From the IMG/VR virus record IMGVR_UViG_3300020213_000615, positions 1 to 28,678 of that record: a stretch of 28,678 nt of DNA; one strand, 5' to 3'. The translations under genes and the position numbers were made by a program. This document shows positions 2 to 27,842 of the stretch, one piece after another (the stretch's first letter is position 1; each line of letters begins with the position of its first letter). The stretch is from a virus. The notes under the pieces were generated by a model, which had not been told where the DNA came from, searched no databases, and saw only the letters and a list, made by a program, of their open reading frames with translations.

Positions 2-1171
2 AATATTATAATTCCATCAGGATTTACAATTGAAGTCCCATCGGCGGCACAAACTCTTATTTTTGAATTGTTTGCGGCGGATGCGGAAGACAATCCTGTT
101 TTTGATCAAAACATTTTGATAACTACTGGCGAAGTGACTAATACTTCAATCGTGGGGTTGGAAGGTCAGACGAGAGTTGATTCATTTGTGGCGAACGGGC
201 AGATCAATCAGATTGTTACGTTGAATTCTACTCCAGTGATATTTGATAGTGTTCGGGTTTCTGTAGATGGTCAGAGATGGAATCTTGTTGATTTCTTTAC
301 AGACAGTAAGAGCAGGAATGAATTTCGTCTTGAATATGACTCGACGTGGACAGGATTTGTGATTTTTGGTAATGGCAAAGCAGGAAGAACGCCTACTGTC
401 GGGTCAGAAATATCTGTTACGTACAGGGTTGGTGGAGGTGTTCGTGGGAATGTGATTACGGGAGCAGTTCAAGCACAGATGGGTTTTAATGTTCCAGGTT
501 TCAATTTCGCTCTTCCAGTGAGTTTCACAAATTATACAAGAGCAGATAATGGTTATAATGGCGACACTATTGAAGACATTAGAATAAAGTTACCAAGATA
601 TAATAAAGCGCAAGACAGGGCAGTTACGGGGGAAGATTACAAGACGCTTGCAGATCAGTTTGTATCGCCTTACAATGGGCAAATTGGCAAGTCTGTGGCA
701 GTTCTTCGTAATTACGGGTGTGCGGGTAATATTGTAGATTTGTATGTATTGGCGAGGGAAGGTAATGATTTTTTACAAGAAGCGTCAGAGAATCTCAAGT
801 CTGAACTTTATGACTTTATGAATAAGAAGAAGATGATTACGGATTTTCTTTGTATTAAAGATGGTGTAATTATTTTGACTGATGTAACGATAGACATTTC
901 TGTTGATAAGTTTTATCGTAAATTCAAAGAAGAATTGACTAGAAAGATTTCTCAGAGGATAGAAGGATTTTTTGCATTGCAGTATTGGGAGTATGGAAGA
1001 TCATTGAAGGATGTTGAGATGGTTCGTGTTCTTGCGGACATGAAGGAAATTAGAGACGTGTCTGTATCGTTTACGACAATTGATCCAGGTAATAGTGGAT
1101 CAACAGTATTGGCGAAGTATTTTGAGATTGTTCGTAAGGACAATTTGGCAATCAATCTGGTGTTTGAGTGA
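2..1171 (+). CDS. Baseplate J-like protein (5' partial)
   Basis: The reading frame is open from base 2, so the gene starts upstream of the window; the TTG at 68 is probably an internal codon. About 389 residues are visible. The N-terminal part reads as a beta-rich baseplate wedge segment (I-P-S-G-F-T-I-E-V-P-S followed by Q-T-L-I-F-E), similar to the P-x-G-T/S turn of Baseplate_J (P2 gpJ, Mu gp47) proteins. Next come a segment ending in F-G-N-G-K-A-G-R-T-P, typical of this family before the Y-R-V-G-G-G-x-x-G-N stretch, and a C-terminal half with I-R-I-K-L-P-R-Y and A-V-T-G-E-D-Y, which resembles the 'RAVT..DYE' region of the family. The family forms the baseplate wedge of contractile-tail phages. 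The stop overlaps the GTG of the next gene by four bases (GTGA), which suggests translational coupling. Family assignment is by motif reading only. Confidence 0.8.
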   Translation, partial: NIIIPSGFTIEVPSAAQTLIFELFAADAEDNPVFDQNILITTGEVTNTSIVGLEGQTRVDSFVANGQINQIVTLNSTPVIFDSVRVSVDGQRWNLVDFFTDSKSRNEFRLEYDSTWTGFVIFGNGKAGRTPTVGSEISVTYRVGGGVRGNVITGAVQAQMGFNVPGFNFALPVSFTNYTRADNGYNGDTIEDIRIKLPRYNKAQDRAVTGEDYKTLADQFVSPYNGQIGKSVAVLRNYGCAGNIVDLYVLAREGNDFLQEASENLKSELYDFMNKKKMITDFLCIKDGVIILTDVTIDISVDKFYRKFKEELTRKISQRIEGFFALQYWEYGRSLKDVEMVRVLADMKEIRDVSVSFTTIDPGNSGSTVLAKYFEIVRKDNLAINLVFE

Positions 1172-4074
1172 AAGTAAATTACAACGAAAATCCGACTTTG
1201 GCTGATGTGGTGGTATTTGATTTAATTACCACAGACATAGATGGATTTGTTATTGATGTTTATTCTGTTAATAAAGTTACGATTTATTTTATTGAACGTG
1301 GCGCAACGGCAGAAAATGTAAATCAATATACCAAGACTGTTTCGAATGAGATTTACACGGAATATTTCAAGGAAGCAATTCCTGTGGCAATATTTGGTAC
1401 GTCGGATTTTCCGGCGTGGATTGGTACGGACTTAGATAATGCGTTTTTGACGAAGGTAGATTATGATGAGTTTGGCATTCCGTTAACTGGAGTGTATCGT
1501 CTTGAATGGAATCAGGAGTTGATGAAGGAAGGCGATTACGTATTATGTTATGAATGGACTCCAATACCTGCTGCGGATCATTTGATACAGAATTTGGGGT
1601 TTTATCTATCTGCCAATTCAAGGAATACAACGAGTATTCCAAGTCATTTTACTGTTCCTGAGAAGTATGAAGTTTTGTTAGAGCGGTATTTGCCTGAAAT
1701 GTTTAAGATGATGTTGGCTGATGGCGATTTGACTCCAAGTGTATTAGACAAATTAAACAAAGCGATTGCCAAAGGTTTTACGTCGATTGAAGATCAGGTC
1801 AATCAAATTGTTGATTTAATTGATGCGAATTCAGTTAATGATTATTTGTTGCCTTATCTTGGTAATTATTTTGATCTTGATTTGAAGGATAAAGATACTG
1901 CGCTTTGGCGAAAGCAAATCAAGCGTGCGATTCCATTGTATAAGAAGAAGGGCACGCTTGATGGTTTGAAGGAGGCGTTAGCTAATTCGGATGTAAAGTT
2001 TAACAAGTTGACGAGATTGTGGCAAGTAGTTTCTCCGTTTACATGGCAAGATGGATTTGTTGTAACGCAAGAGCAGGTTGATGGAGGGATTATAGAGTTT
2101 GTCTTGTCCAAGTTGGCGATTCTTCCTGTTGATGTTTTGAATTTTGAGTTGTATTACCGTGAGTCAGGCGACTCTGATTATACACTTTTGACGGATGCGT
2201 ATGTCAGTTTGGCGAATTCGGGTGGAAAGACTACGGTTACTTGGATTGGTGATATGCTTTCGTCTGGAGCGATTGAGTTGTTTGCTGGTGATGTTATTAG
2301 GGTTGTTTACAAGATCAATCCGGTCACTAATCAGACAATAGAAGATTATATTCGTAGTCTTCCTCTGGCTGATCTTCGTGATGTTTTGTTGGTGACTGCA
2401 CCGCACAAGAACTGGAATGTTCGTGTGATTGGCGAAGATGATCCGTTGTTTGACATGATCATACCTTCGCGTCATCCATTTCAGTATCCTATTTCATACG
2501 GGAAAATCAGAACTGAGTTCCCGTACAGTGAAAACATCTATAATATGGATGAATATAACGGATCATCTAGAGATTCGCTTGATCCGTGTGATTTGGACAA
2601 GGATTTTATGGACAAGTGTTCTTCTTGTCAGGGAAGCAAGTTTACAATTGATGTAGAGATAGAAAATCTTTCAAATGATAGAATTGACGAGACTAATGAT
2701 ATAATCAAGGAATTTGTGCCATTTCATGCTGTTATTCACAGTGTTAATTACACTGGAAGTGTAAATGAGTTTATGTTATCTCCTGCGGAAGATATTGAGT
2801 ATTTGTGTACAATAATCCAGAATGACAATGTTGTTGCAACGCAGATGAATTTCAATCGATTGATTGAAGAGGGAAGTAGTAATGTTCTAGAGTTGAAACG
2901 TAATATGTTGGCATCTACTACATTGACGGCACATTCTGGAACAGGTGTTAATTTGGCTGTTTCGTTATTTAGTCCAGGCATTCAGTTTGGAACTTTGGGT
3001 GTTGACACAGATAGTGATACTTATTTAGAGATTTTGTCTGGAACAGACATGGGTGAGTATAAAGTTGGTACGGCGAATAAGTTTACGGTAGATATTATAC
3101 AAGGGCAACCAGATACAATCAATTGGTCGATTGATCCGAGTGGATTTCCATTTCGTTTATCGAATGAAATGTTTAATGGCACTGTGGATATAGACCAAAG
3201 TTATGAGTATACATTTAGCGATGTTAATATTGAGTTTATTGATTTTGGAACAGTAGAAAATTACAAGGTAGTTGTGACGAGTGGTCCATATGCTGGAACA
3301 TATAATGTGAATAGCATAAATCCTAACAATACGTTAACATTGGCAAGTTTTCCGACAACTGCTACTATTACTGGTTTGAATTATGAATTAAGAACTGCAT
3401 CTAATAATTTGAGGTATACAGGAACGACTGGGAGTGTGTCTTCGTTGGGTGTTGGTAAAGTGACGATGGATGTAAATGCGTTTGATTATGGGATTAGGTC
3501 TGGTGATTATGTTGAGTACAGTGGAACTCAGTATCAGGCGCGTGGCGTAGACGAGTTTATTTGGATTGATGGGTACACTGGTGGAAATGTTGGCGGTGCG
3601 TCGGTTAAAGTTTATCATCGTCTTGTTGAGCTTGCGACTGGTTATCTTGAGATAAAAGGTATGAAACTGACAGGTGTGGTTCCTGTGATTAGCAATGTGG
3701 CGGAAACCAATCAGTTTTTGGACAATTATTTGATATTGATTGGAAGTAACTATTATCAAATCAGCAGTATTAGTGGCAGTGACATGATTTTGAGTGGCAC
3801 TGTGTTATCTTGGGGATTGATTGGAACGCCTGTTAATTATTCAATAGTTCAGTTTATTAAGACTTCACCGATAATGACTCAGAGTATTGATAATCCTTTT
3901 GGTGGTCTTGAGTTTGATCGTTTGGATCGTAGAGGGAATGAGTCTGTTGAGATTATAACAGAAACAGTAATGCCGATGTTTTTGAGAGCATCAATGCTTA
4001 ATAATCAAGGCGAACAATTGGATGCAATGATCCAACAAGAACAAATTTGGTACAACATCGAATACAGGGAGTGA
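1168..4074 (+). CDS. Tail protein I-like baseplate protein with long C-terminal extension
   Basis: A 968-residue protein starting at a GTG that overlaps the previous stop (GTGA). Residues about 165-290 resemble P2 gpI tail protein (Tail_P2_I): L-E-R-Y-L-P-E-M, then Y-L-L-P-Y-L-G, W-R-K-Q-I-K-R-A-I-P-L-Y-K-K-K-G-T-L-D-G-L, the characteristic 'IPLYR.KGT' helix. gpI is usually under 250 residues, so this protein carries an N-terminal beta-rich domain of about 160 residues and a C-terminal extension of over 600. The extension has a small cysteine group (C-x6-ish-C-S-S-C near residue 490) and several repeated beta-sandwich-like segments. The final part overlaps the upstream region of the next gene. 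It probably builds the baseplate together with the J-like protein before it. The role of the extension is not clear from sequence. Confidence 0.7.
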   Translation: MKVNYNENPTLADVVVFDLITTDIDGFVIDVYSVNKVTIYFIERGATAENVNQYTKTVSNEIYTEYFKEAIPVAIFGTSDFPAWIGTDLDNAFLTKVDYDEFGIPLTGVYRLEWNQELMKEGDYVLCYEWTPIPAADHLIQNLGFYLSANSRNTTSIPSHFTVPEKYEVLLERYLPEMFKMMLADGDLTPSVLDKLNKAIAKGFTSIEDQVNQIVDLIDANSVNDYLLPYLGNYFDLDLKDKDTALWRKQIKRAIPLYKKKGTLDGLKEALANSDVKFNKLTRLWQVVSPFTWQDGFVVTQEQVDGGIIEFVLSKLAILPVDVLNFELYYRESGDSDYTLLTDAYVSLANSGGKTTVTWIGDMLSSGAIELFAGDVIRVVYKINPVTNQTIEDYIRSLPLADLRDVLLVTAPHKNWNVRVIGEDDPLFDMIIPSRHPFQYPISYGKIRTEFPYSENIYNMDEYNGSSRDSLDPCDLDKDFMDKCSSCQGSKFTIDVEIENLSNDRIDETNDIIKEFVPFHAVIHSVNYTGSVNEFMLSPAEDIEYLCTIIQNDNVVATQMNFNRLIEEGSSNVLELKRNMLASTTLTAHSGTGVNLAVSLFSPGIQFGTLGVDTDSDTYLEILSGTDMGEYKVGTANKFTVDIIQGQPDTINWSIDPSGFPFRLSNEMFNGTVDIDQSYEYTFSDVNIEFIDFGTVENYKVVVTSGPYAGTYNVNSINPNNTLTLASFPTTATITGLNYELRTASNNLRYTGTTGSVSSLGVGKVTMDVNAFDYGIRSGDYVEYSGTQYQARGVDEFIWIDGYTGGNVGGASVKVYHRLVELATGYLEIKGMKLTGVVPVISNVAETNQFLDNYLILIGSNYYQISSISGSDMILSGTVLSWGLIGTPVNYSIVQFIKTSPIMTQSIDNPFGGLEFDRLDRRGNESVEIITETVMPMFLRASMLNNQGEQLDAMIQQEQIWYNIEYRE

Positions 4075-7475: not shown

Positions 7476-7479
7476 AATT

Positions 7480-9603
7480 ATGCCAAGTGTATATCCGATA
7501 AATTTTGATAATGATGCAAACCTGTATTTGGTTCATGACGAACTGAGAACAAGATTGGTAGAAGACTACAATCCAGGCGACACAGTTATTTACGTGGACG
7601 CCACAAGTGTTTTTGATAGGTTTCCGCCAACTGGGATTATTACATTAACTGAGCAATGTAGTGATATAGGTTTACGAGCAATTTCATTTGAGTATACAAC
7701 CAAAGGAACAGATTGGTCGTTTAGTGGGCTTACGTTGCTGCCTGGCTTTACTGATGTAGCAAAACCTAAGAGAATTACACACGTTACTCAGAATGTGATG
7801 GCAGCACATCACAATCAATTGAAAGATGCCTTGATTGCTATTGAGGAATTTGTTGGTGTTGAGGGTGTAGTGGCTCCAAATGCGTTGGTTGGCACGATGG
7901 AAGCGAGAATAAACTTTCTTCGTAACCTTGTTCTCGCTCCCAAAGCATGGTTCTCAGCAACCAAGAAAATTGGTATTGCTCCATTAACGGTAACGTTCAA
8001 GGATTTTAGTACAAGACAGCCTACGAAGTGGTCTTGGGATTTTGGTGACGCCAGTACAGATATTATAAATCGTACTGAGACAATTTTGACTGGAGAAACG
8101 ACTAAGACGTATTATACGCCAGGAATTTATGATGTAACTCTTACGGTAGAGAATGATTTTGGCACAGATACGATTGTTATTCCTGACATGGTAACGGTTC
8201 GTTATGAGGCACCTGACGAGGCTGTATTGGATTTCTTGCCAACAACATCACAGGCAGTAATTGGTGGCGTCCTACGATCTAGGTCAAATCAATTGATTAA
8301 AATGTTGATTTCTGATGATGGATCGCAGGTAGGCGATTCAATTGCATCATTTACTTGGGATATAACGGATGATTTGCAACATGCACAGTCGGCAAACACC
8401 AATGCGCAGTATAGCATTGGTGGAATTTATGATGTTAAGGTCAAGGCTGAGAGTCAACTTGGATCATATCGTATTACGACTTTTGAGGATGTGATTGATA
8501 TAGTTGAGAAGTTTAATATATGGCATTTTATATTTGATTCTTCTCAGAGTTTATCTGCAACAACCAAAACTTTATATGCTTATGAATTTGGTCTGTTGAG
8601 TGAAACGTACAAAGCAGCAAGTGTTTCTTCAGCATTGACGGTAACGAGAGATGCGGGATTTTTGACAGGTGTTCCATTAGAGCCTCAACAATATGCTGAG
8701 TTTAGGAAGAATTGTGGGTTTTCACCGAGGTCTTATGTATCGTCTGGAGATAAAGGGGCGGGGCTTTTGTATTGGGCAGAAGGCGCAACAACGCCATCAA
8801 CACAGCAAAAAATTCGATTTCGTGAATTTAACGGGTTTGACAATACTTGGTCTGTTCCTGTTTTGAGTAACAGTTCTGATAATGTTGATCGTCAATGGAA
8901 TTGGCTGGCTTTGTCATCACCATCAAATTTGTATTTCTTACTTGGTTCTCCTGGTCCTGGTAGTTTTATTGGGTCGCCTACCAATCAGTCTTTTAAATCT
9001 GTTGATTTGACGACTTATGGATTGGATGATATTGTTTTCACGTCATTGAATTATTTGAATGGCGCAAATGAGTTGATGACAAATGTTGGGGCAGGCAGTG
9101 GTGGAGATTTTAGTGTTTATAGAGGAACGTGGCAAGATTCTAGTGGATATTTTGTCAGGAACGATGGTACTGGGTTATTCTTTCGTTTGAAGAGTTTTTA
9201 TCGCACAGAAGGTACTCAATCGGCTCCTATAGGTACAATTAGGAAGTTGACAGATATGCCAGGTGCGACAAAGTTTGAGGGTCAGATGGTGTCATTGTCG
9301 CGTGGCGTGTATTTCTTCAACAACACGGGAGAAGCGACAGTATACAGTCCAGCGACGAATACGTGGGCATTGGTAGGTCCGGGGTCTAACAGTATAGAAT
9401 TTGCCAGACTACAGGATTCCACTGTTGCTGGTTACGATAGTGCAGCAAATAGATTGGTGGCAATTTCAGATGGAAGCAGCAAGGCATATTTGTTTTATGA
9501 TTATAGCACGAGGGCACAGTTAAAATTCAACGAAACAGATTTGACGTTTACCTCTTTGCCCGTTAGACCGAGCGGAGAACAATTTACGGCGGGATTGTAT
9601 TAA
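7480..9603 (+). CDS. PKD-domain tail protein with Kelch-like C-terminus
   Basis: A 707-residue protein. Residues 1-150 repeat the shared N-terminal module (L-Y-L-V-H-D-E-L, F-P-P-T-G-I-I-T-L, H-H-N-Q-L-K-D-A-L-I-A-I-E-E). A clear PKD domain occupies about 150-245 (W-S-W-D-F-G-D-A, Y-Y-T-P-G-I-Y-D-V-T-L-T-V), and a weaker one about 245-345 (F-T-W-D-I-T-D-D, G-G-I-Y-D-V-K-V-K-A). The C-terminal 350 residues carry blade-like repeats with W or Y at strand ends (A-T-V-Y-S-P-A-T-N-T-W-A-L-V, S-R-G-V-Y-F-F-N), resembling a Kelch-type beta-propeller. No strong ribosome binding site precedes the ATG at 7480. Likely a virion adhesin, with the propeller as the probable ligand-binding end. Confidence 0.8.
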   Translation: MPSVYPINFDNDANLYLVHDELRTRLVEDYNPGDTVIYVDATSVFDRFPPTGIITLTEQCSDIGLRAISFEYTTKGTDWSFSGLTLLPGFTDVAKPKRITHVTQNVMAAHHNQLKDALIAIEEFVGVEGVVAPNALVGTMEARINFLRNLVLAPKAWFSATKKIGIAPLTVTFKDFSTRQPTKWSWDFGDASTDIINRTETILTGETTKTYYTPGIYDVTLTVENDFGTDTIVIPDMVTVRYEAPDEAVLDFLPTTSQAVIGGVLRSRSNQLIKMLISDDGSQVGDSIASFTWDITDDLQHAQSANTNAQYSIGGIYDVKVKAESQLGSYRITTFEDVIDIVEKFNIWHFIFDSSQSLSATTKTLYAYEFGLLSETYKAASVSSALTVTRDAGFLTGVPLEPQQYAEFRKNCGFSPRSYVSSGDKGAGLLYWAEGATTPSTQQKIRFREFNGFDNTWSVPVLSNSSDNVDRQWNWLALSSPSNLYFLLGSPGPGSFIGSPTNQSFKSVDLTTYGLDDIVFTSLNYLNGANELMTNVGAGSGGDFSVYRGTWQDSSGYFVRNDGTGLFFRLKSFYRTEGTQSAPIGTIRKLTDMPGATKFEGQMVSLSRGVYFFNNTGEATVYSPATNTWALVGPGSNSIEFARLQDSTVAGYDSAANRLVAISDGSSKAYLFYDYSTRAQLKFNETDLTFTSLPVRPSGEQFTAGLY

Positions 9604-16134: not shown

Positions 16135-16518
16135 ATGTCTGGATTCCAACGAATCATGGAAATTGAACAGATTTTCAACGGAAAGAAAATCTTGGTCAAA
16201 AGAGATGGGTCAATTACCGTTGAATCTATCGACGGTTCGCCTACACCGCCATTGTCTGAACTTGCTCTTCCTGCGGAATTTTGGAAGAATTTGTCTTCCA
16301 TGATTGCAAACATGAATGAACAAACTGACAAATACGTGGAGCATGTCAGGAATCTTAACGAAGTGATAATCAAATTTGACAAGAAGATCAAAGATTTGGA
16401 AGAGGTTCAGAAGCGGTATGTTCCGATTGGAGGTTCTATGAAAAAGAATCTCTTGTTGGCTGGAATGACAATGGGTAAAAGAATAGCAAATGGAGAAAAA
16501 AATAAGTGTATTTATTAA
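16135..16518 (+). CDS. Hypothetical coiled-coil protein
   Basis: 127 residues from ATG, with GGAG upstream. The N-terminus is beta-like (I-F-N-G-K-K-I-L-V-K-R-D-G-S-I-T-V-E). Residues about 50-100 are a long charged helix with a heptad-like pattern (A-N-M-N-E-Q-T-D-K-Y-V-E-H-V-R-N-L, K-F-D-K-K-I-K-D-L-E-E-V-Q-K-R-Y). No family is recognised. Its 3' end overlaps the thymidylate synthase start by 13 bases, so the two are probably translated together. Confidence 0.7.
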   Translation: MSGFQRIMEIEQIFNGKKILVKRDGSITVESIDGSPTPPLSELALPAEFWKNLSSMIANMNEQTDKYVEHVRNLNEVIIKFDKKIKDLEEVQKRYVPIGGSMKKNLLLAGMTMGKRIANGEKNKCIY

Positions 16519-17429
16519 GTCCTTATGATGACGCGCTGCGGTCTATTTTGAAAAATGGGCAACAAAGAAAGAATCGGACGGGGATCGATACTCTCAGCGT
16601 CTTTTCAATAAAATCGGTTTATGAAATAGATCGATTTTTCCCCTTAGTGACAAAAAGAAAACTATATCCAAAAGCAGTCTTTGCTGAATTGCTTTGGATG
16701 TTATCCGGATCAACAAATAACGAAGATTTAGTTAAACTTGGTGCTAATTTTTGGACACCTTGGGTTGATCCAAGTAATAAAGATAATCAAGAATTCTATG
16801 CAAGAACTGGCTACCCGCCAAATTATTTAGGTCCAGTTTACGGCTGGCAGATGAGACACTTCGGGGCTAGCTATAGCGACTGGATACTTGCTTTAAAACG
16901 TCAAGATCATAACTTTGAAGCATACATTGATGCCGATAAAGAAATTTTGAGTAAAGGTGTAGATCAAATCAGTTGGTTGGTAAATGAAATTAAAACCAAT
17001 CCAAGATCAAGACGTTTGATTGTTTCATTGTGGAATCCAATTGATCTTGGCAATATGAGATTGCCTCCATGTCACTATTGTTTTCACATTGATATTGATG
17101 ATGAAGGCAGGATGAGTATTTTGTTAAATCAGAGAAGTTCTGATTTTCCGGTAGGCGTTCCAGCAAATATTCAGTTTTACAGTGCTTTGTGTTACATGCT
17201 TGCGCAACAAACTGGATATACTCCATATCGGTTCATTCATCACACTGAAGATTCTCACATTTATGTTAATCAGATTGAACAGGTAGAAGAGTATTTGTCT
17301 AAGTCAGAAACGGATTCTCCGACGTTAAAGATTAAACAGGCTAAAGACATTTTTTCATATGATATGGATTGTTTTGAGTTGAGTGGTTATAATCCACATC
17401 CTCCAATTAAAGTCCCTATCGCCGTTTAG
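16506..17429 (+). CDS. thyA: Thymidylate synthase (ThyA type)
   Basis: 307 residues from GTG at 16506, with GGAG about nine bases upstream. It converts dUMP to dTMP with methylene-tetrahydrofolate. Visible family features: F-A-E-L-L-W-M-L-S-G (about 59-68), L-G-P-V-Y-G-W-Q-M-R, R-R-L-I-V-S-L-W-N-P, the catalytic Cys189 in L-P-P-C-H-Y, Q-R-S-S-D-F-P-V-G-V-P-A-N-I with Asn221, and the C-terminal P-I-A-V that closes on the substrate. Asn221 is at the position that selects uracil; dCMP hydroxymethylases have Asp there, so dUMP is the likely substrate. Length is slightly above the E. coli enzyme. It is followed within nine bases by a DHFR gene, the usual partner that regenerates tetrahydrofolate. 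Confidence 0.95.
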   Translation: MYLLSPYDDALRSILKNGQQRKNRTGIDTLSVFSIKSVYEIDRFFPLVTKRKLYPKAVFAELLWMLSGSTNNEDLVKLGANFWTPWVDPSNKDNQEFYARTGYPPNYLGPVYGWQMRHFGASYSDWILALKRQDHNFEAYIDADKEILSKGVDQISWLVNEIKTNPRSRRLIVSLWNPIDLGNMRLPPCHYCFHIDIDDEGRMSILLNQRSSDFPVGVPANIQFYSALCYMLAQQTGYTPYRFIHHTEDSHIYVNQIEQVEEYLSKSETDSPTLKIKQAKDIFSYDMDCFELSGYNPHPPIKVPIAV

Positions 17430-17437
17430 AGTCTAAA

Positions 17438-17950
17438 ATGGTTTCAATTATAGTCGCATGTGATCCCAATAGAATTATTGGCGCAAAAGGCAAGTTGCCC
17501 TGGCGAATGCCTGAAGACCTCCGCATCTTCAAGCAAAAGACTATGGGCTGTTCAGTAATTATGGGTAAAAACACGTGGAATAGCATACCCGATAAAAATA
17601 AGCCTTTGGAGGGACGTGCCAACATTGTCTTGTCAAAGACTTTGTGGTTCCCTGTAAGAACCAAAGATTATGGTCCGTTCTTCATGAGTGATATGGTGGG
17701 CGCTATATCATCCATTCGTACTGATGATAGATTTGAACAATTCCGCGACAAAGACATTTACATTATTGGCGGTGAAAATATTTATAAATCCGCTCTTGAA
17801 CTTGATGTAGTTGATCAGATAATCATGTCTAAGATTGTTAATGAATATGAGGGCGATGTTTATTTCCCTAAACTTGATTCTGATTGGGTAGTCACTGACA
17901 CAGAATTCAAAACAGGCTTTGATTTAGTTACACTGAAAAAAGTGAGATAA
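17438..17950 (+). CDS. folA: Dihydrofolate reductase
   Basis: 170 residues. Reduces dihydrofolate made by ThyA back to tetrahydrofolate with NADPH. The motifs are clear: S-I-I-V-A-C-D, I-I-G-A-K-G-K-L-P-W-R-M-P-E-D-L with the catalytic acid Asp27, F-K-Q-K-T-M, V-I-M-G-K-N-T-W, L-E-G-R-A-N-I-V-L-S, and the I-Y-I-I-G-G-E-N-I-Y nucleotide-binding turn. Length matches bacterial enzymes (about 160-170). It lies nine bases after thyA and shares its last base with the ATG of the next gene (TAATG), so the three are likely one translational unit. Confidence 0.95.
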   Translation: MVSIIVACDPNRIIGAKGKLPWRMPEDLRIFKQKTMGCSVIMGKNTWNSIPDKNKPLEGRANIVLSKTLWFPVRTKDYGPFFMSDMVGAISSIRTDDRFEQFRDKDIYIIGGENIYKSALELDVVDQIIMSKIVNEYEGDVYFPKLDSDWVVTDTEFKTGFDLVTLKKVR

Positions 17951-18496: not shown

Positions 18497-18832
18497 ATGC
18501 CTAATTATAATTTTGTGTGTAAAAAGTGTAATGTGATGTTTGAGAGTCTTTGCAGTTTTGCAGAGTATGATAAGGGATTTCCGAGTGTAAGATGCCCAAC
18601 GTGTAATGGAAAAAAGTTAACAAAGAACGTATTGACTGGAGATGTTCCTGGGCTTATATTTGAAAATCCAAGAGAGAGCAGTAAGTGGAATAACTGGTCT
18701 TACAGACAAGGTAAGACTTGGGAAGAAGCAAAGGTTCAACGAGCCGCAGCAGAGAAAGCAAATAAAGGTTCATTGCCTTACAAGCCAATTGACGACACGA
18801 ATAATGGAAGACGAATGAATTTTATTGACTAA
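18497..18832 (+). CDS. FmdB-like zinc-ribbon protein
   Basis: 111 residues. The N-terminus carries a zinc ribbon of the FmdB/CxxC regulatory type: M-P-N-Y-N-F-V-C-K-K-C with Cys8 and Cys11, then V-R-C-P-T-C with Cys33 and Cys36, and the P-x-Y-x-F/Y-x-C start typical of the family. The remaining two thirds are charged and lack known motifs. FmdB-like proteins are often found in phages with no defined role; zinc binding is the only well-supported property. It is followed by a 259-base gap before the prkA gene. Confidence 0.75.
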   Translation: MPNYNFVCKKCNVMFESLCSFAEYDKGFPSVRCPTCNGKKLTKNVLTGDVPGLIFENPRESSKWNNWSYRQGKTWEEAKVQRAAAEKANKGSLPYKPIDDTNNGRRMNFID

Positions 18833-19024: not shown

Positions 19025-19091
19025 AATCATACTTGACCTGAGTGGGTTGAGTGGGTGGATTCTCTACTCTGTTTTTGGGAGATTGGCAAAG

Positions 19092-21173
19092 ATGGCTACA
19101 GCAACCGCAGAACGATCTGGATGGTTCAACGACTTGGCTCCGAAGTTCAATCGGAATCAGTTCAAGAAGTTGACGGAAACCCTGTCGTTCCCAGAGTATT
19201 TGGAACGGGTCAAGGAGCGTCCGCAACTCGCTTTCTCGGCCTATCAGCGTCTCTATAACCTCATTGTCGCTCCAGGTATGACGACACATGAGCGTTATCG
19301 AAGAACCGTGACACACTACAAGTTCTTCGATGACGATCAGATTCCGATTTGTGGGTTGGAAGATACCCTCGAACAACTCGTCAAGCACATCAAGGGTGCC
19401 GCTGACTGGTACGGTACGGAAAAGCGTATCCTTTTGCTGCACGGTCCAGTCGGTAGCAGCAAGTCCACGATTTGTCGTCGCATGAAGCGCGGCATGGAAG
19501 CGTATTCGCACACTGACGAAGGTGCGATTTACACTTACGATTGGGTCAACATCGGGGACTTCGACATCAAGCCAGAGTCGGCTTGCCCGATGAACGATGA
19601 TCCGATGAAGTTGATTCCGGTCGAGATGCGCGAGTCGGTTCTGCAATACTTGAACGGGAAGTTGGATCAGGATGCCGTTGAGTCTCAACGCCACCTCATT
19701 CACCCGATTCGCTTGACAGGCGAATTGAACCCACATTGCAAATACTTCATGGGTGCATTGCTCAAGAAGTACGACGGCGATTGGGCGAAGGTTGTGGAAA
19801 AGCACATCCGAGTGAAGCGGATTCTGCTGTCAGAAAGTGACCGCATCGGCATCGGAACATTCCAGCCAAAAGACCCGAAGAATCAGGACGCAACTGAACT
19901 GACGGGTGATATCAACTACATGAAGCTGGGTCACTACGGTGTGGACAGCGACCCTCGCGCCTTCTCGTTTGACGGCGAGTTTGAAGTTTCCAACCGTGGC
20001 ATGTTGGAAATGATCGAGATTCTGAAGCTCGAAAAAGAATTCCTGTACGACATGCTCGGCGTGTGTCAGGAACGGCAGTTCAAGCCGAAGAAGTTCCCTC
20101 AGATCGATGTGGACTTGGTTCTCATCGGGCACACGAACAATCCGGAGTTTGAGAAGCTGAAGGCTGATCAAACGATGGAAGCCCTTCGTGACCGAACGGT
20201 TCGTGTGGATGTTCCATACCTGTTGGAATGGAAGCAAGAACAACGAGTTCTTGAACACGATTACGGCAAGCACAAGGTTCGGCAGCACGTCGCTCCGCAC
20301 ACCATTGAGATCGCGGCTCTCTGGTCTATCCTGACTCGGCTCACGCCAGACAAGGATAACAAGATCAGTCTGGTCGAGAAGGCAAAGTTGTACGATGGTC
20401 GTTCCCTTCCGGGTTGGACCGAAGACTCCGTGAAGGAGTTGCGGGACAAGTACAGCAACGAAGGCATGTATCGCGGTGTGTCGGCACGATTCGTGCAGAA
20501 CGCCATCAGCAACGCGCTGGTTAGCAATCCTGGCTACATCAATCCGTTCATGGTGATGAACGAGTTGAAGGCGAAGTTGCGATTGCTGATGATCAACGAT
20601 GAGAACGACCGCACCTTCTACGACTCGTGCATCGAGTTGGCGAAGAAGGAACTGGACGAAATCCTCAAGAACGAGGTCCAACGAGCGTTGGTCGCTGACA
20701 ACAGCGCAATCGAACGGCTGTTCACCAACTACATTGACAATGTGGTTGCCCATGTCGAGAAGACGAAGGTTCGTAATCCGTACACTGGTGCGGAAGTTGA
20801 ACCCGACGAACGCCTGATGCGTTCCATTGAAGAGAAGGCGGATATTCCGGAGCAGATGGCAGACGATTTCCGTCGCCAGATCGCGCAGTTCATCGGCACC
20901 ATGCACTTCCGCAAGAAGGAAGTTCGTTGGGACAGCAACCCGAAGCTGGCGAAGGCTCTGGAAAAGAAGTTGTTTGAGGATACGAAGGACAGCATCAAGT
21001 TGTCCGCTCTGTCCAACGCTGCTGGCGTGATCGACAAGGACTTGGCAGAGAAGATCGACGCCATCAAGACCCGAATGATCAAGAACTTCGGGTACAACGA
21101 AGAGTCTGCGACCGATGTTCTGAACTATGTCGCAAGCATCTTCGCTCGCGGCGAACTCGCTTCTGACGACTAA
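19092..21173 (+). CDS. prkA: PrkA/YeaG family AAA+ serine kinase/protease homologue
   Basis: 693 residues from ATG at 19092, with GGGAG ten bases upstream; an extension to GTG 19047 lacks support. It is a full-length relative of E. coli YeaG and Bacillus PrkA (about 630-645 residues). It has a PrkA AAA domain with Walker A G-P-V-G-S-S-K-S (118-125). The strongly conserved segment R-I-G-I-G-T-F-Q-P-K-D-P-K-N-Q-D, then E-L-T-G-D-I-N-Y, D-P-R-A-F-S-F-D-G-E-F and N-R-G-M-L-E-M, is followed by I-G-H-T-N-N-P-E-F and A-L-R-D-R-T. The C-terminal helical PrkA domain is complete. PrkA proteins act in stationary-phase stress and sporulation and have been described both as protein kinases and as AAA+ proteases. 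GC is clearly higher than in neighbouring phage genes. It is the first gene of a PrkA-YeaH-SpoVR set. Confidence 0.95.
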   Translation: MATATAERSGWFNDLAPKFNRNQFKKLTETLSFPEYLERVKERPQLAFSAYQRLYNLIVAPGMTTHERYRRTVTHYKFFDDDQIPICGLEDTLEQLVKHIKGAADWYGTEKRILLLHGPVGSSKSTICRRMKRGMEAYSHTDEGAIYTYDWVNIGDFDIKPESACPMNDDPMKLIPVEMRESVLQYLNGKLDQDAVESQRHLIHPIRLTGELNPHCKYFMGALLKKYDGDWAKVVEKHIRVKRILLSESDRIGIGTFQPKDPKNQDATELTGDINYMKLGHYGVDSDPRAFSFDGEFEVSNRGMLEMIEILKLEKEFLYDMLGVCQERQFKPKKFPQIDVDLVLIGHTNNPEFEKLKADQTMEALRDRTVRVDVPYLLEWKQEQRVLEHDYGKHKVRQHVAPHTIEIAALWSILTRLTPDKDNKISLVEKAKLYDGRSLPGWTEDSVKELRDKYSNEGMYRGVSARFVQNAISNALVSNPGYINPFMVMNELKAKLRLLMINDENDRTFYDSCIELAKKELDEILKNEVQRALVADNSAIERLFTNYIDNVVAHVEKTKVRNPYTGAEVEPDERLMRSIEEKADIPEQMADDFRRQIAQFIGTMHFRKKEVRWDSNPKLAKALEKKLFEDTKDSIKLSALSNAAGVIDKDLAEKIDAIKTRMIKNFGYNEESATDVLNYVASIFARGELASDD

Positions 21174-21184
21174 TCGTGTCTCCT

Positions 21185-21220
21185 GTGGGGGATAACAATG
21201 TTATCCCCCACTTCTTTATT
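21185..21220 (+). terminator. Terminator after prkA
   Basis: GTGGGGGATAAC, loop AAT, GTTATCCCCCAC: a perfect 12-bp stem at 21185-21211 followed by TTCTTTATT. It begins 11 bases after the prkA stop, so prkA and yeaH are likely separate transcripts or only partly read through. Confidence 0.85.
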
Positions 21221-21222
21221 GA

Positions 21223-21244
21223 TAAAGTTTATATCTAAAGTTTA
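21223..21244. promoter_or_regulatory. Two TAAAGTTTA boxes in tandem (copies 4 and 5)
   Basis: TAAAGTTTA at 21223-21231 and again at 21236-21244, 13 bases apart, both in A/C-TAAAGTTTAT context. They lie just upstream of the sigma-70-like promoter at 21259, in the position of an upstream regulator-binding site. Confidence 0.5.
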
Positions 21245-21258
21245 TCATCTAAAACGTA

Positions 21259-21287
21259 TAGACAAATTATTAGCAATTCTGTACACT
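21259..21287 (+). promoter_or_regulatory. Sigma-70-like promoter of yeaH
   Basis: TAGACA (21259-21264), 17-base spacer, TACACT (21282-21287). It points at the ATG at 21333 and is directly preceded by two TAAAGTTTA boxes. GGGAGG lies about eight bases before the start codon. Confidence 0.5.
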
Positions 21288-21332
21288 AATGTGGTGTAGT
21301 TCAGGGAAAATTCCCAAAACGGGAGGTGTATA

Positions 21333-22571
21333 ATGGCTCAACGCATCATTGAAGACCATCAGGAATTCCGCAATATTATTAGCGGAAAACTTCGAGAAGA
21401 ACTTCAGAAACACATCAAGAACGGGTCAATCTTCCGTCAACGAGGGAAGAACGGCAAAATCAGCGTCACAATACCAAGAATTGATCTTCCCCACATTGTC
21501 TTCGGAAAGCCGAACGATGGTGTTGGGCGAGGTCCAGGTAAAAAGGGCGACGTGATTGGCAAAGACCCAGAAAAGGGCAAGAAAGGTCAACCCGGAACGG
21601 ACCCAGGCGACGGAATCACGGTGCAAGTGGATTTGGAAGAAGTTCTCAAGTTGCTCAAAGAAGAATTGCAACTTCCGGACATGAAGCCGAAACCAAACCA
21701 GACCTACGAAGACACCAAGATCGTGTACAACGGGATCAGCAAACTTGGTCCCAATTCGTTGCTCCACAAGGGGCGAACGATGAAGCAGTGCATGAAGCGT
21801 CTGTCTGCTCTCGGGAAATTGGACAAGAAGGTTTTGTTGCCTGGGTTTACGACTCCGGTTCCAATTCTCAGTCCAATCAACGATGACAAGAGATACCGCC
21901 AGTACAACGAAATTCGCATTCCGACAAGTAACGCTGTGATCTTTTTCATGCGTGACGGGTCAGGATCGATGGATCAGTACAAGTGCGATATCGTGTCGGA
22001 TATTTCGTGGTGGTTGGATTTGTACATCACGAAGTATTACAAGAAGACAGAACGAGTTCACATTTGGCACGACACAGAAGCCAAGGAAGTGTCCGCAAAG
22101 CACTTCTATGAACTCAGATATGGTGGTGGGACGTTTTGTTCATCAGCACTAAAACTGATGAACAAGATTATCAAGAATCGATATAACCCGATCAAGTGGA
22201 ACATTTACGGGTTTTACTTCGGAGACGGTGAGTCATTCGGAACGGACAATCAAGAGTTCACCAAGATGCTGAGAACTCATCTTGGTCCGAACACTGTGAA
22301 TATGTTCGGACAGGTGGAAATTCTCCACTATTCCGGATTTGGTGAAAGTTTGAAGGGTTACATCGATAAGCGACAACAAAAGGGTGAACTCCCGCATGTT
22401 CGCAATGCGAGCATTGATCGCCCAGAAAACTCATCTTGGCATGAAGTTTTCTCGGATGAAACGAAGAGAGATGAAGAAATCAAACGGGTCATCAAGTTGA
22501 TGTTGGGCAAAGACGCCAAAGCACAACAGGATGCAAAAAAGTCGGATGTCAAGATTGAAGAAGTTGTTTAA
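21333..22571 (+). CDS. yeaH: YeaH/YhbH (DUF444) family von Willebrand A-like protein
   Basis: 412 residues, with GGGAGG before the ATG. Length is near E. coli YeaH (about 427). The N-terminus is basic and contains a G/K/P-rich linker (about 60-95). The VWA domain has an intact MIDAS in F-F-M-R-D-G-S-G-S-M (Asp208, Ser210, Ser212), the family segment L-R-Y-G-G-G-T-F-C-S-S-A-L (E. coli has a GGT..SSAL stretch), and Y-F-G-D-G-E-S-F. DUF444 proteins are the invariant partners of PrkA and SpoVR, and work in the same stress pathway in E. coli; their biochemical role is poorly known. The gene is flanked by its own promoter and terminator. Confidence 0.95.
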   Translation: MAQRIIEDHQEFRNIISGKLREELQKHIKNGSIFRQRGKNGKISVTIPRIDLPHIVFGKPNDGVGRGPGKKGDVIGKDPEKGKKGQPGTDPGDGITVQVDLEEVLKLLKEELQLPDMKPKPNQTYEDTKIVYNGISKLGPNSLLHKGRTMKQCMKRLSALGKLDKKVLLPGFTTPVPILSPINDDKRYRQYNEIRIPTSNAVIFFMRDGSGSMDQYKCDIVSDISWWLDLYITKYYKKTERVHIWHDTEAKEVSAKHFYELRYGGGTFCSSALKLMNKIIKNRYNPIKWNIYGFYFGDGESFGTDNQEFTKMLRTHLGPNTVNMFGQVEILHYSGFGESLKGYIDKRQQKGELPHVRNASIDRPENSSWHEVFSDETKRDEEIKRVIKLMLGKDAKAQQDAKKSDVKIEEVV

Positions 22572-22577
22572 ACTTTA
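22569..22577. promoter_or_regulatory. TAAAGTTTA box (copy 6, inverted)
   Basis: TAAACTTTA overlapping the yeaH stop codon and immediately before the terminator stem, 59 bases upstream of the spoVR start. With copies 3-5 it places a box ahead of each of the three genes. Confidence 0.4.
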
Positions 22578-22606
22578 GCAGAGCATTTTGCTCTGCTTCC
22601 TTTTGA
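22578..22606 (+). terminator. Terminator after yeaH
   Basis: GCAGAGCA, loop TTT, TGCTCTGC (22578-22596), followed by TTCCTTTT. The same GCAGAGCA/TGCTCTGC core is found in the palindrome after spoVR at 24192. Confidence 0.75.
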
Positions 22607-22635
22607 CCCAAATAAACCTCTCTACGGAGATAACA

Positions 22636-24183
22636 ATGTCGCAGTTGATGCAATCCCCAACTCTGTTGATGGGCGATAATACGATTCCTGGGGTAAAGAT
22701 ACCGAAAGAAATTCTCGTCAAGATTCCAGGCATACTTCAAGCGTGCCGCGATTTTGGGTTGGATTTTTACGATACAATCGTGGAATTTCTGACCTATGAC
22801 GAGATCAGTGAAGTGGCGGCGTATGGTGGTTTCCCTGTCCGATACCCACACTGGCAGTTCGGAGAGCAGTACGAAGACCTGTCTAAAGGTTATCAACACG
22901 GGATGCACCGCATATACGAAATGGTGATTAACACCAGCCCGTGCTACATCTACTGTTTGGACAGTAACACGGTTGTTGACCATGTGACCGTTATCGCACA
23001 CGCGACCGGACACAATGACTTCTTCAAGAACAACGTGTTCTTCGGGCAAACCAGTCAGAACATGATGAATGAACTGGCGAATCATGGAAGCCGAATCCGA
23101 AGATACATGAGCGAGTGGGGCAAAGAGCCAGTTGGCAGGTTCATCGACAAGATTCTGTGTGTGGATACACTGATCGATCCAGCGGCAGCATGGACTAAGC
23201 GATCAGTGAGTGAGCCAGTGTATCGGACAAAACGTGAATATCACCACCCTCGCAGACTGCGGGTGGATCACGACTACATGGAAGATTGGATCAACACACC
23301 AGAGTGGTTGAAGACGGAACGCGAACGTATCCAAGAAGAAGATGTTCGCCGTCAAATCGGAATTTTTGAGAATCCGACGAAGGACATTTTGGGGTTCATG
23401 AAGGATCATGCGCCACTCAATTCGTGGCAAAGTGACGTCATCTCCATGTTGTATGAGGAGGCGATGTATTTCGCCCCTCAACGGCAGACGAAGATGATCA
23501 ACGAAGGATGGGCAAGCTACGTCGATAGTCAGATCATGGCAAGATTCGGTTTCGCGGAAGGAGCTGGAATCTTCGACTACGCTCATCACAAGGCAGGTGT
23601 TCTTGGTGGCAAGCGAAGTATGAATCCTTACAAGATGGGTTACATGCTATTCCTCTGGATTGAGGAATGCTACAACAAGGGCAAGTTTGGTCGAGAATAC
23701 GATGACTGCACGGATGCACGAGAACGTCAGTTGTGGGACAAGAAACTTGGTCTTGGTCACGAAAAAGTGTTTGAAGTGAGGCAGTTTGGCAACGATGTGA
23801 CGATGCTTGCAGAATACTTTGATCAAGAGTTCTGCGACAAGTACGAGTTCTTCATTTGGGAGAAATTCCCTGACGGAACGTACAAGATCATGGATCGGGA
23901 TGCGAATCGCATCAAGCAAAGTTTGTTGAAGAGCAAACTGAATGGCGGGTTGCCAGAAATCAAACTGGTTGACCCTAACCACAAGGGTAAGCGTATCTTC
24001 CTCATGGAACACACATGGGACCAACGGCTGCTTCACCCACAGCAGACGAAGGACAGTCTGAGGGCACTCAGCGCAATCTGGAAGGGACCAACGGCTGTGT
24101 TGAGTAAGGACAAAGACTCGCGAGAAATAATTTATTATTGCGAGGACGATAAAGTCGAAATCATAACGCCAGGAAAAGTTTGA
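22636..24183 (+). CDS. spoVR: SpoVR/YcgB family protein
   Basis: 515 residues from ATG at 22636, with ACGGAG eight bases upstream; the in-frame extension to 22588 runs into the terminator and is rejected. Length is close to E. coli YcgB (about 510) and greater than Bacillus SpoVR (about 468). Family hallmarks are present: V-I-A-H-A-T-G-H-N-D-F-F-K-N-N (His122, His126), and I-N-E-G-W-A-S-Y (288-295), matching the 'MNEGWA' segment, followed by H-H-K-A-G-V and N-P-Y-K-M-G-Y. SpoVR acts in spore cortex formation in Bacillus, and YcgB in the stationary-phase system with YeaG and YeaH. It completes the triad. Composition is GC-rich like the other two. Confidence 0.95.
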   Translation: MSQLMQSPTLLMGDNTIPGVKIPKEILVKIPGILQACRDFGLDFYDTIVEFLTYDEISEVAAYGGFPVRYPHWQFGEQYEDLSKGYQHGMHRIYEMVINTSPCYIYCLDSNTVVDHVTVIAHATGHNDFFKNNVFFGQTSQNMMNELANHGSRIRRYMSEWGKEPVGRFIDKILCVDTLIDPAAAWTKRSVSEPVYRTKREYHHPRRLRVDHDYMEDWINTPEWLKTERERIQEEDVRRQIGIFENPTKDILGFMKDHAPLNSWQSDVISMLYEEAMYFAPQRQTKMINEGWASYVDSQIMARFGFAEGAGIFDYAHHKAGVLGGKRSMNPYKMGYMLFLWIEECYNKGKFGREYDDCTDARERQLWDKKLGLGHEKVFEVRQFGNDVTMLAEYFDQEFCDKYEFFIWEKFPDGTYKIMDRDANRIKQSLLKSKLNGGLPEIKLVDPNHKGKRIFLMEHTWDQRLLHPQQTKDSLRALSAIWKGPTAVLSKDKDSREIIYYCEDDKVEIITPGKV

Positions 24184-24191
24184 TTTCACTA

Positions 24192-24225
24192 TACTATGAG
24201 CAGAGCAATTGCTCTGCTCATAGTA
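24192..24225. other. 34-base perfect palindrome after spoVR
   Basis: A perfect inverted repeat with AATT at its centre and the core GCAGAGCA / TGCTCTGC, flanked by arms of TACTATGA and TCATAGTA. It has no T-run after it, unlike the terminators, so it may be a bidirectional transcription stop, a regulator-binding site or a recombination site. The core is shared with the hairpin at 22578-22596. Confidence 0.8.
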
Positions 24226-24253: not shown

Positions 24254-25165
24254 ATGTTTAAATTCTTATTGGGTTTTGCGGTTGTTATTGGGTTTGCTGG
24301 AACGGGGTTTGCTCAGAATAAATTCAAAGATGACGCAGACAAGGCAGCATATCTACAAGATATCAGTGTAACAATTCATGCAGGAGGCGCACAAGGATCA
24401 GGTGTCATCAAGACCGTTAAAGATACTAACTATGTATGGACGTGTGGACACGTAGTACAGCATTTGCGTAGCACTAGAACAGTAATTGATTCAAAGAGCG
24501 GATCAACCAAAACCATTGTTGAATTCGCTGACGCAAAGATTGTCAAGGAATTGATTGAAGATGGAAGAGCGGTTGGAAAGTTGGAAATGGATGCTGAAGT
24601 TCTTAGGTATAGTGACGCAGAGAATGGTGAAGACTTGTCATTACTTCGTGTTCGCAAGAAGAATTTCATCAAGACCAGTGTGAATTTCTATCTGGATTCC
24701 AAGATTCCACCAGTAGGTTCCAAATTGCTACACGTTGGCAGTTTGTTGGGTCAAATGGGTAGCAATAGTTTGACCAGTGGGGTTATGTCTCAGCACGGTC
24801 GTGTATATGCAACGAAAGTTTACGACCAAAGCACTTGCGCAGCATTTCCAGGTAGTAGTGGTGGTGGTGTTTACTTGGAAAGTGATGCAAAGTATGTAGG
24901 AATGATTGTTCGTGGCGCAGGAGAAACGTTCAATCTAATGGTTCCAGTTCGCCGTATGGAACTGTGGGCAAAACACGTCAAGATTGGGTTTACAATGGAT
25001 GATAGTGCAGTTCCAACTGAGGAAGAACTTCGCAAATCTCCAATTGAAGATTCTGGAGTTGTATTTCATGCTGATCCTGCCAAAATTGCACCTCCTCACG
25101 CAAGAGAGAAGGAATTTCCATTCCTTATTTATCTAAAGGATACGCAGATTCCGCTAATTAAGTAA
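24254..25165 (+). CDS. Exported trypsin-like serine protease
   Basis: 303 residues from ATG, with AAAGGGAAAG upstream. A signal peptide is clear: M-F-K-F-L-L-G-F-A-V-V-I-G-F-A-G-T-G-F-A with likely cleavage after residue 20. The trypsin/HtrA-like domain holds a full triad: His66 in W-T-C-G-H-V-V, Asp127 in G-E-D-L-S-L-L, and Ser202 in F-P-G-S-S-G-G-G. Residues 64 and about 195 are cysteines that could pair. No PDZ domain is visible; the C-terminal 60 residues are an unassigned tail. Sec export suggests it acts in the periplasm or outside the cell. A secreted protease is uncommon among phage genes. It sits between the spoVR palindrome and a strong terminator, so it is probably its own transcript. 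Confidence 0.9.
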   Translation: MFKFLLGFAVVIGFAGTGFAQNKFKDDADKAAYLQDISVTIHAGGAQGSGVIKTVKDTNYVWTCGHVVQHLRSTRTVIDSKSGSTKTIVEFADAKIVKELIEDGRAVGKLEMDAEVLRYSDAENGEDLSLLRVRKKNFIKTSVNFYLDSKIPPVGSKLLHVGSLLGQMGSNSLTSGVMSQHGRVYATKVYDQSTCAAFPGSSGGGVYLESDAKYVGMIVRGAGETFNLMVPVRRMELWAKHVKIGFTMDDSAVPTEEELRKSPIEDSGVVFHADPAKIAPPHAREKEFPFLIYLKDTQIPLIK

Positions 25166-26450: not shown

Positions 26451-27842
26451 ATGAATTATATTGAAGACGAACGTGGATTTGAACATTTACATTTGCACAC
26501 TGATATGAGCCTTCTTGATGGTTTTGGAACGACAGTAGAGTATTCAGAACGCGCTCCCAAGATCAATCAGCAATTTTTGTGTGTTACCGATCATGGTATG
26601 ATGGCTGCAATCCCACAGCAAATTAGAGCCTGTGAAAAAAATAAAATTACTCCAATTTTCGGGTGTGAACTTTACCTTCAGGATAAACATCCATCAAAAG
26701 ATGACTTTGCTCAAATGACGAGCAAAGAAAAGGGCGAAATAAGAAAGTCTTATCATCTTCTTGCAATTGCTTATACGAATCAAGGATATAGCAATCTTGT
26801 CAAGTTATCATCATGGGCATGGATGAATGGATTCTATTATAAGCCTCGTGTAACGCATGAACAATTGCGTAAACACAAAGAAGGAATTATCTTTACGTCT
26901 TGTTGTTATAATGGCGAGGTAGGTCAAGCGTTTGATAAAGGTGGAGAAGATGCTGCTTACGCAATGATTGAAAAGTATCGTGATCAATTCGGAGAAAACT
27001 TCTATCTTGAATTGATGATGTTGGATTACAACAAGCAGAAACCTTTTGATGCTTTTTTGATCAAGGCACATGACAAGTACAAAATTCCACTCATACTAAC
27101 TCAAGACACTCATTATTGTGAAAAGGAAGACAGTAAATTTCAAAGATATATGTTGATGATTCAGAAGGATTCATCAATTAAAGAGATTGAAAATAAGTTA
27201 TCTGCTGATGATAAAGCCGACATTTTTGAGTTACAAGACACCAACTTGTGGATGAAAAGCGAACGAGAATTGAATGAGAAATGGCTGGCGATGTACCAAG
27301 ATGTCATTCCTTATGATTTGTATGTACAAGCAAAGATGAATACGGTAGCGATTTGTCAAAAGGCTAAAAATGTTCAAATCGACAGAAGTATGAAGTTACC
27401 AGAACTTCCTGATGCAAATGATCGTTTCAAAGAGGCTGTAATAGAAGGCGCAAAAAGTCGTGGTATTACTAACAATAGGAAATACAAGGACAGAATTAAA
27501 GAAGAATATGATTTGATTTGTCGTAAAGGATTTGCAAGTTATTTCCTGATTCAAAAACAGATGACCGATGAAGCACGTAGAATCTGTCCAAGTCTTCTAG
27601 GATGGGGAGATGGCAGTGAAGCCGTTGGACCAGGAAGAGGTTCGGTTTGCGGATCATTAGCATGTTATTGTTTGGGAATTACAGATGTTGACCCAATCAG
27701 ACACAAATTGTTGTTTAGTCGATTTTTGAGTGAAAGTCGTGGTGGTCGTTCTTACAGGTTAAAGTTTAGCGGAAAACCAATTACTAGAGCGGAGACATTA
27801 GTTGAAAACATATTGGCAGAATGTGATGAAGAAAACATCTGA
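26451..27842 (+). CDS. dnaE: DNA polymerase III alpha (DnaE-type), N-terminal half only
   Basis: 463 residues; DnaE proteins are usually over 1,000. Residues 1-225 are a PHP domain with apparently complete metal ligands: H-L-H-L-H (12-16), T-D-H-G (46-49), G-C-E (Glu73), S-Y-H (His102), S-C-C (Cys151/152) and D-T-H (Asp219, His221). E. coli DnaE has lost several of these; intact PHP domains can act as 3'-5' proofreading exonucleases. The start of the polymerase core follows (F-A-S-Y-F-L-I-Q, G-P-G-R-G-S at 393-398, G-I-T-D-V-D-P, L-L-F-S-R-F-L). It stops before the P-D-F-D-x-D-F catalytic aspartates, ending in R-G-G-R-S-Y-R-L-K-F... So the second half must be a separate gene, or the protein is not a polymerase. 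No ribosome binding site is obvious. Confidence 0.85.
   Translation: MNYIEDERGFEHLHLHTDMSLLDGFGTTVEYSERAPKINQQFLCVTDHGMMAAIPQQIRACEKNKITPIFGCELYLQDKHPSKDDFAQMTSKEKGEIRKSYHLLAIAYTNQGYSNLVKLSSWAWMNGFYYKPRVTHEQLRKHKEGIIFTSCCYNGEVGQAFDKGGEDAAYAMIEKYRDQFGENFYLELMMLDYNKQKPFDAFLIKAHDKYKIPLILTQDTHYCEKEDSKFQRYMLMIQKDSSIKEIENKLSADDKADIFELQDTNLWMKSERELNEKWLAMYQDVIPYDLYVQAKMNTVAICQKAKNVQIDRSMKLPELPDANDRFKEAVIEGAKSRGITNNRKYKDRIKEEYDLICRKGFASYFLIQKQMTDEARRICPSLLGWGDGSEAVGPGRGSVCGSLACYCLGITDVDPIRHKLLFSRFLSESRGGRSYRLKFSGKPITRAETLVENILAECDEENI

Follow-up and report, generated by a model that had tools for sequence, protein, structure and literature searches.

A complete PrkA-YeaH-SpoVR gene trio carried by a clade of huge phages

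The 28,678-base virus fragment IMGVR_UViG_3300020213_000615 of the IMG/VR collection, hereafter called the window, carries three adjacent, full-length genes whose products belong to the PrkA, YeaH and SpoVR families. From profile searches, comparison with related loci and phylogenetic analysis, we conclude that the trio is, on tree evidence, a phage version of a bacterial module that is vertically inherited in the clade to which the window belongs. In that clade, which consists of huge phages, it looks like a near-core gene set, a description that fits the data without being proof.

Three intact genes

An earlier note, made from the letters of the window alone, had described an adjacent and full-length PrkA, YeaH and SpoVR set with hallmark motifs GPVGSSKS, DGSGS, AHxxGHNDF and NEGWAS. 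The genes were found intact at the positions given there, the motifs are present, and the key residues are invariant across the SpoVR and YeaH alignments. Broken motifs, which the same note had named as grounds for refutation, are excluded, the motifs being intact both in the window and in its relatives.

The PrkA gene (19092..21173, + strand) codes for 693 amino acids from an ATG and combines an AAA+ ATPase domain with the PrkA C-terminal domain. The longest frame, 19047-21173, opens at a TTG; since GGGAG precedes the ATG at 19092, the latter is the likely start. Pfam matches were obtained for AAA_PrkA (E=6e-77, 259.6 bits) and for the PrkA C-terminal domain (E=2e-71, 241.4 bits), each against a cut-off of 25, and the protein also matched phrog_22605 (E=4e-98) and a solved bacterial PrkA, 9xip, which is a close relative (E=9e-204). 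Its Walker A motif is intact, and the Walker A pattern was found in 89 of 89 viral loci. The score against the PrkA/YeaG equivalog model (NCBIfam NF011999) was below the cut-off (202 versus 576 bits); by its sequence, the window protein is a member of the family and not a YeaG equivalog.

The second gene (21333..22571, + strand; likely start, the ATG at 21333) codes for a YeaH/YhbH (DUF444) protein of 412 amino acids, comprising a VWA domain with a complete metal ion-dependent adhesion site (MIDAS). The DUF444 profile was matched with E=5e-71 (240.5 bits versus a cut-off of 27), and Foldseek, run with an AlphaFold2 model (predicted local distance difference test score, pLDDT, 86.0), retrieved VWA folds (E=7e-8). 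The MIDAS is made up of DGSGS, T267 and D298, and D208, S210, S212, T267 and D298 are invariant in 64 YeaH sequences. The cut-off for the sporulation YhbH equivalog (TIGR02877) was not reached (195.7 versus 468 bits).

The SpoVR gene (22636..24183, + strand) codes for 515 amino acids from an ATG, with the motifs AHATGHNDFF and NEGWAS, and the window copy contains no intein. Its longest frame opens at the TTG at 22588; the ATG at 22636 is the likely start, because 22588 falls within a hairpin and the relatives start at this ATG. The Pfam match has E=3e-103 (346 bits versus a cut-off of 27), residues H122, H126, N289, E290 and G291 are invariant in 78 sequences, and the score against the SpoVR/YcgB equivalog model (NF008737) was again below the cut-off (155 versus 679 bits).

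A consensus scan, the sole method used for these features, revealed terminator-like hairpins on the + strand directly 3' of PrkA (21185..21211, 12 pairs), 3' of YeaH (22577..22597) and 3' of SpoVR (24192..24225, 15 pairs). The last two have in common the arm AGCAGAGCA, which occurs in four exact copies where 0.15 would be expected.

Spread and selection in the phage clade

A profile scan of IMG/VR produced 472 stretches encoding relatives of PrkA; the best 80 of these were analysed together with other viral loci. All 84 related IMG/VR loci that have room for it show the order PrkA-YeaH-SpoVR, a count that includes a few loci from one contig; the other three loci end at a contig edge. The genes are not only adjacent but co-inherited, as the distances for the three genes among phages are correlated (Spearman 0.70-0.85). 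The clade includes five long records (527, 511, 320, 299 and 595 kb) that carry the trio together with terminase and baseplate wedge genes, the trio lying 112-320 kb from the terminase on long contigs. In a sample where contigs were chosen by their terminase rather than by the trio, PrkA and SpoVR were present on all five contigs of at least 341 kb and on none of the ten shorter ones.

The median ratio of nonsynonymous to synonymous substitution rates (dN/dS) between close phage pairs was 0.036 for PrkA, 0.05 for YeaH and 0.071 for SpoVR. Values this low show strong purifying selection, and therefore that each of the three proteins is in use by the phages.

Most loci have the trio adjoining nucleotide-metabolism and DNA polymerase genes. 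The neighbour families in the viral loci include an FmdB-like family (81), a small protein (77), another (69) and an HldE-like family (63); these four were found in none of 80 bacterial loci. A ClpP-like family occurs near the trio in 32 viral loci, but next to the trio neither in other phages nor in any of the 80 bacterial loci.

Origin of the phage trio

Whether other phages carry the set, which the earlier note had left to profile searches and trees, could be settled: Thermus phages and huge phages do. In the PrkA, YeaH, SpoVR and concatenated trees the window falls inside one phage clade (support 100 in the concatenated tree), and one short divergent contig lies outside that clade in the PrkA tree. 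The sister group consists of PrkA-YhbH(YeaH)-SpoVR operons of Myxococcota, Planctomycetota, Bdellovibrionota and others, which contain the same families in the same order, their PrkA being 48-53% identical to the phage query. The phage copies differ from them in forming their own clade and in having the neighbours (FmdB-like, HldE-like and others) that the bacterial loci lack.

Isolated phages with a complete trio, like that of the window, are Thermus phages phiYS40, TMA, MN1, phiLo and Lalka8. Their genes, however, are ordered YeaH-SpoVR-PrkA, their PrkA is ca. 30% identical to that of the window, and their genomes are smaller. Placing the Thermus phages and the window clade in one phage clade was only marginally rejected (approximately unbiased test, p=0.046), so a separate origin of the Thermus trio is marginally supported by the trees. 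Huge phages of 634-642 kb (LR756502, LR745206 and LR756504) have, like E. coli with YeaG-YeaH plus YcgB, the same families, motifs and set as the window. Because their PrkA proteins are 61-65% identical to Enterobacter YeaG, and ca. 26% to the window protein, their trio represents a second acquisition; in LR756502, unlike the window, SpoVR lies ca. 245 kb from PrkA. Large phages have acquired the trio at least twice, and probably three times. The existence of separate complete trios in the window clade, the Thermus phages and the E. coli-like huge phages indicates that the set was acquired more than once and kept whole.

In published work, Ralstonia jumbo phage RsoM2USA encodes at least two members, SpoVR (ORF28) and PrkA (ORF30), and the gap between these open reading frames is YeaH-sized (PMC8504454). 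Its SpoVR, unlike that of the window, is bacterial-like (56% identity to Vibrio). Viral spoVR is abundant in an oxygen-minimum-zone virome, where it was read as sporulation control (PMC8940887), and the trio is absent from the main text of a paper on huge phages (PMC7162821). The trio in phages is thus already known, phiYS40 and others having been deposited and RsoM2USA published in part. Its near-core status in the huge-phage clade and the SpoVR inteins described below may be new, as we did not find them in the searchable literature.

Two records in the data set call for comment. In the trio tree, a metagenome-assembled genome (MAG) that bears the name Klebsiella pneumoniae clusters with a MAG of Acidobacteriota; its label is probably wrong (L173). 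The record of Enterobacter phage LAU1 opens with yeaG-yeaH (L010, 1-3308), probably host DNA at a prophage end.

Inteins and the putative active site of SpoVR

In an AlphaFold2 model of SpoVR (pLDDT 89.6), HATGH lies on a helix (residues 113-132) and NEGWAS on a long helix (263-303); a beta strand (95-98) precedes both. Compared with solved structures, the best match had E 0.25 and a template modeling (TM) score of 0.13, several weak hits being zincins. A library of viral structures yielded one significant but poorly superposed match, which carries no name. The likeness of 'HATGH ... NEGWAS' to 'HExxH ... NEGFA' of M1 peptidases had given rise to the idea that SpoVR is a zincin (gluzincin). 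As a claim of family membership this was rejected: the HE..H pattern occurs in none of 83 viral and none of 47 bacterial SpoVR proteins, the motif being H-A/V-x-G-H, without the catalytic Glu, and none of the fold matches reached significance.

Inteins interrupt viral SpoVR inside NEGWA/S in 17 loci and at VN/T (residue 99/100) in 13, with eight loci having both. These counts were made by regular expression and include near-identical contigs; splicing and LAGLIDADG domains were confirmed in examples. The inteins are ca. 400 amino acids each, of the LAGLIDADG type, and one or two are present per gene (L005, 9995-12799; L058, 11158-15291; L050, 10772-13711). Two bacterial SpoVR genes, from Chloroflexota and Deltaproteobacteria MAGs, also have an intein at the NEGWAS site (L098, 10275-12611; L154, 10041-12881). 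The SpoVR of LR756504 (636 kb; L015, 15510-17420) contains an insertion of ca. 130 amino acids at NEG/C, two residues from the NEGWA/S site; this is an apparent mini-intein, in which the Pfam splicing domain was not detected. No paper on SpoVR inteins was found in the searchable literature.

An E. coli population selected on iron(III) acquired ycgB H127Y (PMC10044975). Residue 127 of YcgB, the second His in HACYGH, aligns with His126 of the window protein (L178). Together, the intein sites and H127Y suggest which residues belong to the SpoVR active site.

Phage context of the window

The earlier note had placed the trio among phage genes, and this proved correct. Upstream on the + strand lie genes for a baseplate wedge protein (68..1171; phrog_219, E=3e-20), a tail protein (1168..4074; phrog_48, E=2e-7), thymidylate synthase (16506..17429) and dihydrofolate reductase (DHFR; 17438..17950), the last two identified by Pfam and PHROG, followed by a gene for an FmdB-like zinc-ribbon protein (18497..18832), a conserved upstream neighbour of the trio in the phage clade. 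For this family the Zn_ribbon_8 match of a relative was just under the cut-off. Downstream, also on the + strand, are genes for a trypsin-like serine protease (24254..25165; Trypsin_2, E=1e-10) and for the N-terminal part of DNA polymerase III alpha, PHP plus NTPase (26451..27842; Pfam and PHROG); the polymerase gene lies close to the trio in related loci as well.

The protease has a hydrophobic N-terminus resembling a signal peptide and weakly matches the defence proteases LmuA and RT-Protease_XI. As a trio neighbour it is common only to the window and its two closest relatives, L002 and L003, in which the gene order (thymidylate synthase, DHFR, FmdB-like, PrkA, YeaH, SpoVR, trypsin-like) is that of the window; elsewhere its place 3' of SpoVR is often occupied by the ClpP-like gene. 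On the phage contig 3300028571_002266, a gene for Cas12i (PADLOC, 1584 bits) is followed by a 13-copy repeat array (L005, 13956-18213), probably a phage-borne CRISPR (clustered regularly interspaced short palindromic repeats) system beside the trio.

The window further encodes two proteins with PKD-like 'WDFGDG' motifs (6501-9603), presumably virion surface proteins, and a large protein with many 33-nt (11-amino acid) repeats of the type FGPAPSFAPIS, which has no family match (9648-12416). Scanning the window for Rfam families and tRNAs gave no matches.

Possible role of the trio during infection

The explanation we favour, with moderate confidence, is that the trio is an AAA+/VWA activase for SpoVR that keeps the infected host workable in long infections. 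PrkA would assemble into an ATP-driven ring, to which YeaH would dock as an adaptor via its MIDAS, as in RavA-ViaA or at the Rea1 MIDAS; the two would then remodel, activate or metal-load SpoVR, and SpoVR would carry out a reaction by which an infected cell, when starved or stressed, is helped to keep its envelope and metabolism workable. The phage would supply its own trio because host expression is confined to starvation or stress. RavA, an AAA+ protein with a VWA partner, is matched weakly by the PrkA profile (E=5e-4), and pairs such as RavA-ViaA, MoxR-VWA and the Rea1 MIDAS likewise join an AAA+ ring to a MIDAS-bearing VWA partner, although PrkA has a C-terminal domain of its own and SpoVR is an additional, third partner. 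From the conserved residues we infer that SpoVR is an enzyme with a His-His-Glu centre. A bolder version, in which the activase drives a new His-His-Glu metalloenzyme as a near-core module, the phage thereby holds starved or slow-growing hosts productive, and the intein sites mark the active site, is tentative and in our view rather doubtful.

Several observations weigh against the proposed activase. With a terminator-like hairpin 3' of each trio gene, PrkA, YeaH and SpoVR may be separate transcription units instead of being co-transcribed. It is the linkage of the genes that makes us infer that SpoVR is a client of PrkA-YeaH. SpoVR has no known activity and no significant match among solved structures. 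In the Lalka phages, a positional exception, the trio lies between a minor head gene and the terminase, so it may have a role in the particle.

The earlier note had suggested that the phage takes over host dormancy or stress control. Use of the set by the phage is upheld by the strong purifying selection; the host role would follow by analogy with E. coli YeaG/YeaH (PMC4664914) and Bacillus PrkA (PMC13001217). The B. anthracis protein is an AAA+ protein needed for sporulation and osmotic stress, and had no detectable kinase or protease activity (PMC13001217). Kinase activity is disputed within the PrkA family. In a related proposal, the host would mount a starvation, abortive-infection or dormancy response, which the trio would block or outcompete. 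This draws on the effect of E. coli YeaG on toxin-antitoxin expression and rpoS (PMC4664914) and on the sweep of yeaG E414K in a T7-selected E. coli population (PMC10044975). The sweep was observed only once, however, and among several mutations, PADLOC matched no defence family or model to the trio, and the retained motifs speak against a decoy; we consider such counter-defence unlikely. 

Equally improbable, in our estimate, is a part in virion building, in which an AAA+/VWA chaperone, PrkA-YeaH, would assemble or mature the particle and SpoVR would process a structural protein. A virion or lysis role, which the earlier note had offered as an alternative, gained no positive support. The Lalka8 arrangement would agree with it, as would the ClpP-fold gene 3' of SpoVR in many relatives, a gene that in PHROG matches head maturation proteases best. 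Yet in the window and its relatives the trio has thymidylate synthase, DHFR and DNA polymerase III as neighbours and lies far from the terminase on long contigs, its proteins do not stand out from their families, which are otherwise cellular, and neither ORF28 nor ORF30 is among the abundant virion bands of RsoM2USA (PMC8504454). Still less likely is phage proteolysis, in which PrkA would unfold host proteins for the downstream protease, with YeaH and SpoVR as adaptors. The recurrence of a protease near the trio, ClpP-like in the 32 loci and replaced by a trypsin-like one in L002, L003 and the window, and a weak match of the PrkA profile to Lon AAA+ domains favour it, but the two proteases are unrelated, the ClpP-like family is confined to part of the phage loci, the window protease looks secreted, and purified B. 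anthracis PrkA was without protease activity.

That the trio consists of passenger host genes, or stems from a host contig fused to phage sequence, is hardly credible, even though the families arose in bacteria and the LAU1 record appears to hold host yeaG-yeaH at its end. A join or contamination, named in the earlier note as a possible refutation, was rejected for the phage clade: the arrangement recurs in independent records (84 of 84 loci) with clade-specific neighbours, and long trio-bearing contigs contain terminase and baseplate genes. The separate, deep phage clade, the conserved phage neighbours and the low dN/dS argue equally against passenger genes.

The PrkA-YeaH-SpoVR stress module is widespread among bacteria. 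Since the phages of this clade keep the whole trio under strong selection, it is likely to be important for infection. The SpoVR intein sites and YcgB H127Y single out residues of interest, and phage carriers, including isolated Thermus phages with the full set, offer a direct route to the function of the trio.

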